A stretch of 64,000 bases of DNA from Qipengyuania sp. JC766. Lineage in GTDB: Bacteria; Pseudomonadota; Alphaproteobacteria; Sphingomonadales; Sphingomonadaceae. The stretch spans positions 2,366,001-2,430,000 of the forward strand of contig NZ_JBFEFL010000001.1 of NCBI RefSeq assembly GCF_040717445.1. The letters are read 5' to 3'. The position numbers and the translations under genes were made by a program. Below are positions 7,502 through 11,282 of this stretch, one piece after another. The notes below the pieces were generated by a model. That model was given only the letters and a program-made list of their open reading frames with translations, was not told the origin of the DNA and did not search any database. Numbering within the stretch: the stretch's first letter is position 1; every line of letters begins with the position of its first letter.

Positions 7502-9109
7502 TCAGTCCCTGACGAGTGCGCGCAGCGCTTCGATCCGGTCGGCCTCGTGCACCGGCTTGTCCCAGCGGATGCGGTGGATGCGCGGAAAGCGCATGGCGAG
7601 GCCGCTCTTGTGCCGCTTGCTCTGGTGGACGCTGTCGAACGCGACTTCGAAGACCAGGCTGCGATCGGTTTCGCGGACCGGGCCGAAGCGGTTGACCGTG
7701 TTCTGGCGGACGTGCCGGTCGAGTTTCTTCAGTTCCTCGTCGGTGAAGCCCGAATAGGCCTTGCCCACCGGCAACAGCTCCGCGCCGCCATCGGGGTCGC
7801 CGTCCCAGCAGCCGAAGGTGTAGTCGGAATAAAAGCTGGACCGCTTGCCGCTGCCGCGCTGGGCATACATCAGGACCGCGTCGATCAGCAGCGGGTCGCG
7901 CTTCCATTTGTACCACAGGCCGGTCTTGCGGCCGGCTACGTAGGGGCTGTCGCGCCGCTTCAGCATCAGCCCCTCGATCGCGTCGTCGCGGGTGCCTTCG
8001 CGGATCTGTGCCAGGTGCTCGAAATCGCGCGCATCGACGATCTGCGACAGGTCGAAGCGCGCCGCCGGAAGGCGTGCCATCAGCTTTTCGAGGATGGCGC
8101 GTCGCTCGGACCACGGTTTCTCCCGCAGGTTCTCCCCTTCCAGCGAAAGCACGTCGTAGACGCGCACGAAGGCCGGGCTCTCGCGCAGCATCTTCTTGCT
8201 GACCGTTTTGCGACCGAGGCGCTGCTGCAAGGCGTTGAAGCTGGCTGCGCCGCCCGCTTCCCCGCCCTGCGTGGCCCCCTGGACCAACAGCTCGCCATCG
8301 AGGATCGCGGGGAAATCGAGCGCGTCCAGCATCTCGGGAAAGGTATGCGAGATATCGTCCCCGCCGCGCGAATAGAGGCGCGTTTCCCCGCCTGCATGGA
8401 CCAGCTGCACGCGGATCCCGTCCCACTTCCACTCAGCGACGTAATCCTCGAGGCTGACCACGGTCTCTTCCAGCGGATGGGCCAGCATGAAAGGCTTGAA
8501 CAGCGGCAGCCCGCCGATATCGGGCGGATCGGCCCCGTCGGCCGCCCATGCGAACAGCTCGGGGTAAGGGGGGCGCATCCCGTGCCAGTATTCCTCCACA
8601 TCCTCCACCGGCACGTCGAACGCCTGCGCGAAGGCGACCTTGGCGAGCCGCGTGGAAACGCCGATCCGCATGCCCCCCGTCGCGAGCTTGAGCAGGGCGT
8701 AGCGCCCCGGCGGGTCGAGCCGGTCGAGCAGGGCAGGCAGTTCGGTCGTCACGGACTTGCGAGTCATCGCTTCCAGCGCGGCCACGGCTTCGGACACCGA
8801 TGGAGCCGGATCGACGGGCGCGGCGGCACCCATCTGCGCGGTGTCCCACAACAGGCTGGCCGTTTCCGCCGTGTCGCCGACGAAGTCCCGGCTCAGCGTC
8901 CATAGCGCGGGATCGATCCGGTCCTTCATGATGGTGCGAATGGTGCCGGACTTGACTGCCGGGAAGTCCAGACCGTCCGTCAGGGCCGCCATCGCCCAGC
9001 CGCGATCCGGATCGGGCGTCGCGCGCAGGTATTCGGCGATCAGGCGCAGCTTCTCGTTGCGGCTGCGCGTGTAGATAAGGGCATCGATGAGGGCGGCGAA
9101 ATTTTCCAT
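7502..9109 (-). CDS. ATP-dependent DNA ligase (DNA-damage-response type)
   Basis: A 535-residue ATP-dependent ligase. It has an N-terminal helical DNA-binding domain (about 1-200), the nucleotidyltransferase domain with the adenylated lysine K228 in EWKWDGIRVQ, motif III-like LYSRGGDDISHTFPE, motif IV-like EGLMLKRRDSPY, motif V WYKWKRDP, then an OB-fold C-terminus ending in the MRFPRIHRIRWDKP motif. Sequence and length match the family annotated as cisplatin damage response ligase. This family usually travels with a beta-CASP exonuclease, which lies here at 10278-11282. Unusually, the lipoprotein/OmpA locus sits between them; its last stop is 20 bases from this ATG, so the ligase may be read from the same stress-inducible transcript. 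Confidence 0.92.
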   Translation of the reverse strand: MENFAALIDALIYTRSRNEKLRLIAEYLRATPDPDRGWAMAALTDGLDFPAVKSGTIRTIMKDRIDPALWTLSRDFVGDTAETASLLWDTAQMGAAAPVDPAPSVSEAVAALEAMTRKSVTTELPALLDRLDPPGRYALLKLATGGMRIGVSTRLAKVAFAQAFDVPVEDVEEYWHGMRPPYPELFAWAADGADPPDIGGLPLFKPFMLAHPLEETVVSLEDYVAEWKWDGIRVQLVHAGGETRLYSRGGDDISHTFPEMLDALDFPAILDGELLVQGATQGGEAGGAASFNALQQRLGRKTVSKKMLRESPAFVRVYDVLSLEGENLREKPWSERRAILEKLMARLPAARFDLSQIVDARDFEHLAQIREGTRDDAIEGLMLKRRDSPYVAGRKTGLWYKWKRDPLLIDAVLMYAQRGSGKRSSFYSDYTFGCWDGDPDGGAELLPVGKAYSGFTDEELKKLDRHVRQNTVNRFGPVRETDRSLVFEVAFDSVHQSKRHKSGLAMRFPRIHRIRWDKPVHEADRIEALRALVRD

Positions 9110-9129: not shown

Positions 9130-9609
9130 TCAGTCCTGCAGGATCACTTCGACGCGGCGGTTCTTTTGCCGCCCGTCCTCGTTGTCGGTCCCGTCCGGGT
9201 TGGCATTGGGCGCGGTCGGGCGGTCTTCCCCGTATCCGGTCACTTCCATCCGGTCTCCGGGTACCTGGTGCACGTCCTTCAGGAAGTCGCGCACCGCCTG
9301 CGCCCGGGCCCGCGACAGGCGATCGTTGTAGCCGTCGTCGCCCTTGGAATCGGTATGGCCCTCGACGGCGATTGTCGGCGGTTCCTCCGCATCGATCAGC
9401 TGCGCCAGCTTGGCGAGGACGGGGCGCGCACTCTCGCGGATCTCGGCCTTGTCGAAATCGAACAGGACATCGCCCGGCAGCGAAACGACGGTTCCGCGCG
9501 CCGTTTCGGTCGCGCCGAGTTCCGAACGGATGTTCTCGACCGAAGTGACCGAGCTGCGGCTGGGCTGCCCGTCGCCGGTCGAGGACCCGGCGCCTGCGGC
9601 CAGCTTCAT
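9130..9609 (-). CDS. OmpA-family peptidoglycan-binding domain (second half of a split gene)
   Basis: 159 codons from the ATG at 9609. The OmpA C-terminal domain is complete: LFDFDKAEIRESARPVLAKLA (about 50-70), the VEGHTDSKGDDGYNDRLSRARAQAVRDFL motif with the Asp and Arg that bind diaminopimelate, and NRRVEVIL at the end. This form has no signal peptide of its own, so as a free product it could not reach the periplasm. The same frame is open upstream to the A9 run at 9652-9660. One extra A, or one -1 ribosomal slip on that run, joins it in frame to the lipoprotein at 9648-10217. I therefore read it as the C-terminal half of one lipoprotein-OmpA protein. Confidence 0.8.
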   Translation of the reverse strand: MKLAAGAGSSTGDGQPSRSSVTSVENIRSELGATETARGTVVSLPGDVLFDFDKAEIRESARPVLAKLAQLIDAEEPPTIAVEGHTDSKGDDGYNDRLSRARAQAVRDFLKDVHQVPGDRMEVTGYGEDRPTAPNANPDGTDNEDGRQKNRRVEVILQD

Positions 9610-9641
9610 CGACGACTGCGGCGCGGGCCGCCCGTTAGACA

Positions 9642-9668
9642 GACGGCTCAGTTTTTTTTTGAGCCGTC
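9642..9668 (-). other. Hairpin carrying the A9 slippery run
   Basis: On the minus strand a perfect 9-bp inverted repeat (GACGGCTCA / TGAGCCGTC) encloses a loop of A8C, so the A9 run straddles the loop and the first base of the stem. The zero frame reads TCA AAA AAA AAC TGA. A tandem lysine slip by one base (A AAA AAA) would bypass the TGA and enter the OmpA frame. The run is inside the loop rather than after the stem, so this is not an ordinary terminator. Confidence 0.75.
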
Positions 9669-10217
9669 GTCCGAAAAGGCTGCCTCTTCCAAGGGCAGGT
9701 TTATGCGAAAGCCCGGCGTATTCGTGTGCTGGTTGCTGGTCTGGTTGCCGTCATTGACGATCAGCGTCGCGGTCTCGCCTTCCGGCAACTGGCCAAGGAA
9801 GACCAGTTCCGCTTCCATCCTCTGGCCGGGCTGGATCGTCAGCTGCTCGTTGTTGGTGGGCGCGGACAGGAACAGCTTCGTACCGCTGCCGGTCACCAGA
9901 TAGGTATCGTCATTGCCGTACTGGTTGAGGCGGACTTCGGAATCGCGGCCATTGGTCACGATCGCATTGATGACCGTTTCCGATGGTTTCACCTGCAGGG
10001 ACGTCAGCTGCAGCACCACCCGGTTGGGGTGGGCTTCCTGGATATTGAGCGCCATCGGCTCGCCGCCGCCGAACAACTGGGCCGTCAGGGACGGGCCCTC
10101 GGGCGTCATGTCCTGCGTTTCGCCGTCTTCGCTCGCGGCCTTCTCTTCCGAGGATGTGAGGCCGCATCCGGCCAGTGCCATGGCGGGGATAAGGGTCAGG
10201 GCCAGAACGCGCTTCAT
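9648..10217 (-). CDS. Lipoprotein, N-terminal half of a split lipoprotein-OmpA gene
   Basis: 189 residues from the ATG at 10217, which has a GAGGAGA ribosome site seven bases upstream. The signal MKRVLALTLIPAMALAGCG ends in lipobox LAGC (acylated Cys18). After an acidic linker comes an Ig-like beta domain of about 120 residues (VLQLTSLQVKPSETVINAIV... through ELVFLGQLPEGETATLIV). The frame ends at a TGA directly after an A9 run: the last residues are GSKKN. Reading the run one base longer continues into KKKLSRLSNGRPAPQSS and the OmpA domain. An EcfG-type promoter (10274-10249) lies just upstream. Outer-membrane anchoring by the lipid and peptidoglycan binding by the OmpA half would fit together. 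Confidence 0.82.
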   Translation of the reverse strand: MKRVLALTLIPAMALAGCGLTSSEEKAASEDGETQDMTPEGPSLTAQLFGGGEPMALNIQEAHPNRVVLQLTSLQVKPSETVINAIVTNGRDSEVRLNQYGNDDTYLVTGSGTKLFLSAPTNNEQLTIQPGQRMEAELVFLGQLPEGETATLIVNDGNQTSNQHTNTPGFRINLPLEEAAFSDDGSKKN

Positions 10218-10277: not shown

Positions 10278-11282
10278 TCACTCGTCCTCGTCCTCGCGCC
10301 CGACCAAGGCCAGTGCGCGGGCCTTGCGCTGGTGCAGCTGGCACCAGCGGAGCAAGGCATCCTCGCGTCCGTGCGTGATCCAGCTTTCCTGCGCGTCGAC
10401 CTGGCGGATCGTGTCGGTCAGTTCGCCCCAGTCGGCATGATCGGAAATCACCAGCGGCAGTTCGACGTTTCTCTGCCGCGCGCGCTGGCGCACGCGCATC
10501 CATCCCGACGCCATGGCGGTGATCGGTTCGGGCAGGCGGCGGCTCCAGCGATCGTTGAGCGCAGACGGGGGCGATACGACGATATGCCCGCGCATCTCGT
10601 CCTTCGTCGCATCGGCCACCAGACGCAATTCGCCGAGCGGCACGCCCCATTCCTCGTAGAGGCGGCACATGCGCTCCATCGCGCCGTGGAGGTAGATCGG
10701 TTCGGAATAGCCCGCGGCGCGCAGTTCGGCGATAACGCGCTGCGCCTTGCCCAGGGCATAGGCGCCGATCAGCACGCACCGTTCGGGATGGGCTGCCAGC
10801 CGGTCGAGCAGCTTGCGCATCTCGTCCTCGATCGGCGGGTGGGTGAAGACCGGCAGGCCGAAGGTCGCCTCGGTGATGAACACGTCGCACGGCGTGACCT
10901 GGAAGGGCGGGCAGGTCGGATCGGCACGGCGTTTGTAATCGCCCGTCACCACGACCCGTTCGCCGGCATGTTCGAGCAGGATCTGCGCGCTGCCCAGTAC
11001 GTGCCCGGCGGGGATGTAGGTCGCATCGACTCCGCCCTTCAGGCGGACGGTCTGGCCGTACTCCACCGGTTTGGAGCCCTTGCGGGTGTTGTAGCGCAAC
11101 CGCATGATCGCCAGCGTTTCGGGCGTGGCGTAGGTTTGGCCGTGCCCGCCGCGCGCGTGGTCCGCATGGCCATGGGTGACAAGCGCCCGGTCCGCCTCTC
11201 GCGAGGGATCGATCCATGCATCGGCGGGCACGACATGGATGCCGTGCGGATGCGGCTGGATCCAGGAGAAGGGCGCGCTCAC
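10278..11282 (-). CDS. Ligase-associated DNA damage response exonuclease (metallo-beta-lactamase fold)
   Basis: A 334-residue metallo-beta-lactamase/beta-CASP nuclease. The metal-binding HGHADH motif is at about residues 37-42, followed by the GHVLGSAQILLE motif with its His, VVTGDYKR with the bridging Asp, and the beta-CASP part with GAYALGKAQRVIAEL and, near the C-terminus, ISDHADWGEL. These fit the exonuclease that accompanies the bacterial ATP-dependent ligase; a role in DNA end processing is inferred from the family. The acidic tail is GREDEDE. ClpA ends 72 bases upstream on the same strand. The ligase partner lies on the far side of the lipoprotein/OmpA locus. Confidence 0.88.
   Translation of the reverse strand: MSAPFSWIQPHPHGIHVVPADAWIDPSREADRALVTHGHADHARGGHGQTYATPETLAIMRLRYNTRKGSKPVEYGQTVRLKGGVDATYIPAGHVLGSAQILLEHAGERVVVTGDYKRRADPTCPPFQVTPCDVFITEATFGLPVFTHPPIEDEMRKLLDRLAAHPERCVLIGAYALGKAQRVIAELRAAGYSEPIYLHGAMERMCRLYEEWGVPLGELRLVADATKDEMRGHIVVSPPSALNDRWSRRLPEPITAMASGWMRVRQRARQRNVELPLVISDHADWGELTDTIRQVDAQESWITHGREDALLRWCQLHQRKARALALVGREDEDE

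Follow-up and report, generated by a model that had tools for sequence, protein, structure and literature searches.

We have found that a lipoprotein gene of Qipengyuania sp. JC766 very probably carries a conserved programmed frameshift at a run of nine adenines (A9), by which one gene would give rise to two envelope lipoproteins. The gene lies in the 64,000-nucleotide stretch of DNA that was analyzed, hereafter called the window. When the run is read faithfully, translation is predicted to end at a TGA and to yield a short outer-membrane lipoprotein, free of the wall, that carries an Ig-like domain. Some events would add one A to the run and so join the lipoprotein to the reading frame of an OmpA domain; the resulting long form would grip peptidoglycan via that domain and hold the outer membrane to the wall. 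A steady mix of the short lipoprotein and the OmpA-bearing long one would be the simplest reading. An earlier note on this DNA had proposed programmed slippage with a short and a peptidoglycan-anchored long lipoprotein as its products, and conservation among relatives strongly supports that proposal. We infer from sequence comparisons that both proteins are made, and likewise which agent slips, in what ratio the products arise, that they reside in the outer membrane and that the long form acts as a tether. No prior report of a lipoprotein/OmpA slip gene was found in the searched literature, which omits most subscription journals.

The lipoprotein begins with MKRVLALTLIPAMALAGC, which includes the lipobox LAGC (Table 1), and the lipidation site, Cys18, is invariant across an 8-row alignment (A2) and in all 10 genomes with an A9 run. 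Its final codons are GAC GAC GGC TCA AAA AAA AAC TGA, the stop falling directly past the run where the earlier note had placed it. Reading the run as A10, or a single -1 slip, leads into SKKKLSRLSNGRPAPQSSMKL..., which is open as far as the TGA at 9130; the -1 frame past the A9 run (KKKLSRLSNGRPAPQSSMKLAAG...) is open into a full OmpA domain, and the continuation described in the earlier note is thus borne out. Taken by itself, the downstream ORF (9609->9130) contains the full Pfam OmpA domain and is without a signal peptide, again as the note had claimed. In the window genome a lipobox and an OmpA domain can come together in one product only via a frameshift, while they lie in a single frame in two relatives (G761 and G780).

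Table 1. Features of the lipoprotein/OmpA locus in the window (Qipengyuania sp. JC766)
Feature	Position	Strand	Description and basis
Lipoprotein ORF, short 0-frame product	10217->9648	minus	189 aa including signal peptide, ending ...AAFSDDGSKKN-TGA; orthologues
Signal peptide and lipobox LAGC, residues 1-18	10164..10217	minus	sequence
Ig-like beta-sandwich domain (resemblance at fold level), lipoprotein residues 55-174	9696..10055	minus	AlphaFold and Foldseek
A9 slip site (putative), 0 frame TCA AAA AAA AAC	9652..9660	minus	sequence
0-frame stop TGA, directly after the A9 run	9648..9650	minus	sequence
Perfect 9-bp inverted repeat, A9 run in loop	9642..9668	minus	folding; lineage-specific, probably dispensable
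-1 frame linker KKKLSRLSNGRPAPQSS..., unbroken into OmpA	9466..9651	minus	its counterpart in fused relatives aligns with it (LSNGRP / LSNMRP)
OmpA C-terminal-like peptidoglycan-binding domain, PF00691	9187..9465	minus	Pfam OmpA, E 1.6e-21
Predicted long product, lipoprotein plus OmpA	9130..10217	minus	362 aa; frame analysis, single-frame homologues

Homology searches of relatives recovered nine further genomes with an A9 run (G311, G772, G629, G107, G820, G462, G439, G714 and G433), among them the MAG DS4.bin38 (G772, L073), Qipengyuania qiaonensis (G629, L074) and Sphingomonas spermidinifaciens (G439, L075). A single-protein query against the genome contigs returned no match, and a 3-row alignment query returned three loci. 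Together with the window and the two genomes with A10 (G761 and G780), these relatives form a 12-genome set with one genome per species. The consensus in the ten A9 genomes is GACGAYGGCTC followed by exactly nine A and then C or G. All ten share the codons GAC GAY GGC TCA AAA AAA AA[C/G] and the -1 continuation into OmpA. The 0-frame stop past the run is an immediate TGA in four of them, whereas five have 3 codons before it and G433 has 24. The run is kept in all 12 genomes, across genera, and the frame break in 10 of the 12.

This conservation is concentrated at the run itself, which is surrounded by a nearly invariant island of DNA with variable flanks; the lipoproteins of the seven relatives in alignment A2 are 35-61% identical to that of the window. 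Most of the 34 fully conserved lipoprotein columns vary synonymously, whereas the slip site shows zero synonymous variation. Its Ser codon is TCA in 10/10 cases, as against 4/262 Ser codons elsewhere in the same genes, and its Lys codons are AAA in 20/20 cases, as against 26/147. A slip-prone run thus lies at the overlap of two frames, the second a homologous coding region, and both the run and the frame break persist across species with unusual synonymous conservation. With both strands counted, the 2.70-Mb window genome has two A9 runs, the second of them intergenic, and each of the eleven relatives has one to three distinct runs of at least nine. The slip-gene run is the sole run of at least nine in 4/12 genomes (G714, G433, G761 and G780), and the lipoprotein/OmpA frame junction accounts for 12 of the 21 found across about 38 Mb. 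The rarity of A9 runs, together with the conservation of this run and its frame break in other genera, goes beyond chance. The second A9 run of the window genome (G000:C1:2614597-2614605, L133) is upstream of a gene beginning MRTLLIGAAVLL.

Both halves of the locus are under purifying selection, with dN/dS values of 0.10-0.32 for the lipoprotein part and 0.04-0.34 for the OmpA part in the -1 frame; constraint on the linker is weak (0.23-1.06). The earlier note had allowed for a sequencing error or a disrupted gene, and a split by itself would look just like one. However, the same A9 run and the same break occur in ten separately assembled genomes, and dN/dS on either side of the break is far lower than 1; this explanation is therefore refuted for practical purposes, its probability being negligible. 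A further explanation holds that there are two separate genes and that the OmpA ORF starts by itself, through reinitiation after the lipoprotein stop. The OmpA frame of the window does offer an ATG, at 9609, but this codon is not conserved in relatives. Candidate starts in G107, G462 and G433 occur only at the edge of the OmpA domain, and G439 has no ATG, GTG or TTG between the run and the domain, so that its OmpA part could be made only by frameshifting. A reinitiation product would moreover be without a signal peptide, whereas OmpA domains work in the periplasm, and we consider reinitiation highly improbable.

The earlier note had also drawn attention to the hairpin whose loop contains the run. 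Its perfect 9-bp inverted repeat is present (GACGGCTCA-AAAAAAAAC-TGAGCCGTC) and folds, and a similar one is found in G629. In the orthologue alignment, the split and the A-run turned out to be conserved (as A10 in two genomes) and the stem did not: stems that enclose the run reach at least 8 bp in just 2/12 genomes, the window and G629. The pairing also follows in part from the coding constraint GGCTC...CTGAGC. A role for the hairpin as a functional element, be it slippage promoter or terminator, is accordingly very improbable, and the suggestion that it promotes slippage went unsupported. The note had judged the hairpin unlike a terminator, and it was right to do so; a terminator reading of the stem was rejected, there being no U-tract after it on the coding strand. 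An Rfam search gave a single match, below threshold, which was disregarded. The frameshift proposed here would probably not need the hairpin.

The two genomes with A10 are sisters in both trees (support 100/100 for the lipoprotein and 99/95 for OmpA), and in both the lipoprotein and OmpA parts are in one frame (GCA AAA AAA AAA TC...). Slips in either direction in these genes hit early stops, as when one added A in G761 gives KKKI-TAG; the exception is one added A in G780, which opens a detour of 44 codons. The long frame is the default in the A10 genomes, and slippage would give short products. This clade has kept a full-length run with flanks that differ from those of the A9 genes, and since its genes are already in a single frame, the run is retained even where the default yields the long protein. 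A comparable difference in polarity separates Thermus dnaX from Shigella mxiE (PMC1088944). The earlier note had raised phase variation as well, in which replication slippage would toggle the OmpA anchor, with A10 as the on state and A9 as the off state. The existence of both A9 and A10 genomes does imply at least one change of length at the DNA level. Nevertheless, the run is exactly A9 in ten species (one genome each), and A10 is confined to one clade of two sister genomes. A run of nine is short for a contingency tract, and relatives that encode both products simultaneously as two genes suggest a joint need for them. Phase variation is thus unsupported and, in our judgment, improbable.

For the programmed frameshift itself, RNA polymerase slippage on the A9 run appears to be the most likely agent, and we hold this with moderate confidence. 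All nine bases of the run have been retained, even those superfluous for an A_AAA_AAG heptamer, which favors the polymerase. So does the direction of slippage: transcriptional insertions predominate at A/T runs (PMC5574713), and in each of the ten A9 genes a single inserted A leads into the long frame. Nine is also the length at which, in many bacterial genomes, selection against slippage on an A-run sets in (PMC1088944). Downstream RNA structure showed no conserved element among the 12 genomes (z from -1.0 to +1.8), and no upstream Shine-Dalgarno stimulator is conserved, SD-like words occurring in 3/12 genomes at differing places. The lack of either favors slippage on the homopolymer alone.

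The alternative is -1 programmed ribosomal frameshifting on A_AAA_AAA, A_AAA_AAC or A_AAA_AAG, which would give the same two products and might act alone or alongside the polymerase. E. coli-type heptamers (A_AAA_AAA and A_AAA_AA[C/G]) are present in the 0 frame of all A9 genes. All of the conserved letters contribute to such heptamers and would also serve a ribosomal slip, the early ones of the run within A_AAA_AAA. A stop immediately past the run recalls dnaX-type arrangements. A_AAA_AAG is reported to be a highly efficient motif, and A_AAA_AAC is a proven case in insertion sequences without an established stimulator (PMC4066793). Against a ribosomal agent stand the absence of a conserved downstream stem or upstream SD, the full-length run of the A10 clade despite its different flanks, and the genes of the AAG group, in which TCA and the first AAA are invariant yet A_AAA_AAG needs none of the first three A's. 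We therefore regard ribosomal frameshifting as possible but distinctly less likely than polymerase slippage.

Part of the family does without the run. A tandem pair takes its place in 13 other sphingomonad genomes: directly after a short lipoprotein gene (LP1) comes a second gene, LP2, in which the same lipoprotein domain, the linker and OmpA are fused in one frame. The longest sense A-run in these loci is 2-6. The earlier note had counted fused orthologues without an A-run against its proposal; such orthologues exist, but a second, short lipoprotein gene stands upstream of each one, and this speaks for a system with two products. The tandem pairs (G072, G199, G173, G302, G531, G518 and others) have the same two architectures as the predicted products of the slip genes and are homologous to them through the junction (ALSNMRP / RLSNGRP), although they achieve this with two genes, no A-run and no need for a frameshift. 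Both copies from ten of the 13 genomes were taken into the trees. LP1 and LP2 form one clade separate from the slip genes in the lipoprotein tree (96/94), and in the OmpA tree, rooted on separate OmpA lipoproteins, the LP2 genes nest inside the slip genes (95/94). An AU test did not reject a single clade of slip genes (p = 0.198). From these trees we favor, as an unproven order of events, a slip gene that came first and whose duplication afterwards produced a short gene and a fused one. In G521 (L101) the fused LP2 lacks its OmpA part and runs into EAL-like sequence (DDFGTGYSSLSNL), perhaps through a recent rearrangement.

A third arrangement, found in G011, G446, G441, G444, G445, G494 and G088, pairs the lipoprotein gene with a downstream gene for a separate OmpA lipoprotein that has a signal of its own. 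The linker of this OmpA lipoprotein (L066, L067, L068, L069, L070, L042 and L097) mostly begins with a conserved RSLKDE/RSLKDQ-like motif.

The slip-type gene is patchily distributed, occurring in 6 of 295 genomes of genus g106, and a search across the class turned up a single weak relative beyond the family (G1183). In the window, the locus is flanked by genes at 7502-9109 and 10278-11282, both on the minus strand. In the window genome and in G311, G629, G772, G761 and G780, which are of the Erythrobacteraceae type, the gene adjoins an ATP-dependent DNA ligase and/or a gene of the metallo-beta-lactamase fold resembling ligase-associated exonucleases. This constant ligase/exonuclease neighborhood suggests vertical inheritance with losses. 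The slip-type genes of Sphingomonas (G107, G462, G439 and G714) have a small lipoprotein gene directly downstream (in G107 at about 1780-2161 on the reverse complement of L041) with a CR...NSL.YV.FF.GD motif; by eye its product is like lysozyme-inhibitor lipoproteins, and it had no Pfam match. A search of plasmids gave one match, a distant lipoprotein relative with 32% identity on a predicted conjugative plasmid of Sphingomonas paeninsulae (NZ_CP032827.1, 82206-82577).

The lipoprotein domain matched no Pfam family, with weak DUF4352 matches only. An AlphaFold model built from four sequences had a mean pLDDT of 68, with strands spanning residues of about 55-174 and blocks of pLDDT 67-91. Its best Foldseek matches were beta-sandwich lipoproteins or secreted proteins (Listeria 4eae, Bacillus 4les, YcdA 4r4g and MPT63) at TM scores of about 0.4-0.5, a fold-level hint that the domain resembles an Ig-like beta-sandwich. 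Since the OmpA domain belongs to the type that binds peptidoglycan, the long form would probably tie the outer membrane to the wall, the short form being free.

We lean slightly toward a fuller reading, in which polymerase slippage sets a fixed-ratio split between free and wall-anchored lipoprotein, one sister lineage has resolved the split by duplication, and another has flipped the default via run length. If true, this would be a natural series in which recoding and gene duplication replace one another. Few cellular genes are well supported as making two working products by poly-A slippage, and this family offers three natural controls: the split A9 gene, the fused A10 gene and the two tandem genes. 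It would be a good case for studying the benefit of a fixed mix of free and anchored lipoprotein, and the replacement of a frameshift-dependent gene by duplication. Automated annotation is likely to record an intact lipoprotein at such loci and to treat the OmpA portion as a truncated or stray gene.

Several known systems resemble parts of this locus. YiaD, YfiB and Pal combine a lipid anchor with an OmpA C-terminal domain, as the predicted long product does, but they are read in a single frame and to our knowledge have no Ig-like domain; the window protein fell below the NCBIfam cut-offs of YiaD, YfiB and Pal-type OmpA lipoproteins. E. coli dnaX, a case of -1 ribosomal frameshifting on A_AAA_AAG, shares the slippery A-run and a nearby stop in the alternative frame. 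Its stimulators are an SD upstream and a stem downstream, neither of which is conserved in the slip genes. The nine-A run inside a cellular coding gene has its counterpart in dnaX of Thermus thermophilus, where polymerase slippage on A9 gives two products of different length (PMC1088944). The default there is the long product, as predicted for the A10 relatives, whereas the default in the window would be the short one, and protein, compartment and phylum all differ. A further likeness is found in tssM, which encodes a T6SS membrane protein of a different family and for which we know of no two-gene equivalent. In Citrobacter rodentium tssM1 (A11), poly-A slippage before a stop yields an envelope protein in two lengths, and both forms are needed (PMC4256274). 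Yersinia pseudotuberculosis tssM3 has the opposite polarity (PMC4256274), and this difference between Citrobacter and Yersinia parallels the one that we predict between the A9 and A10 genes.
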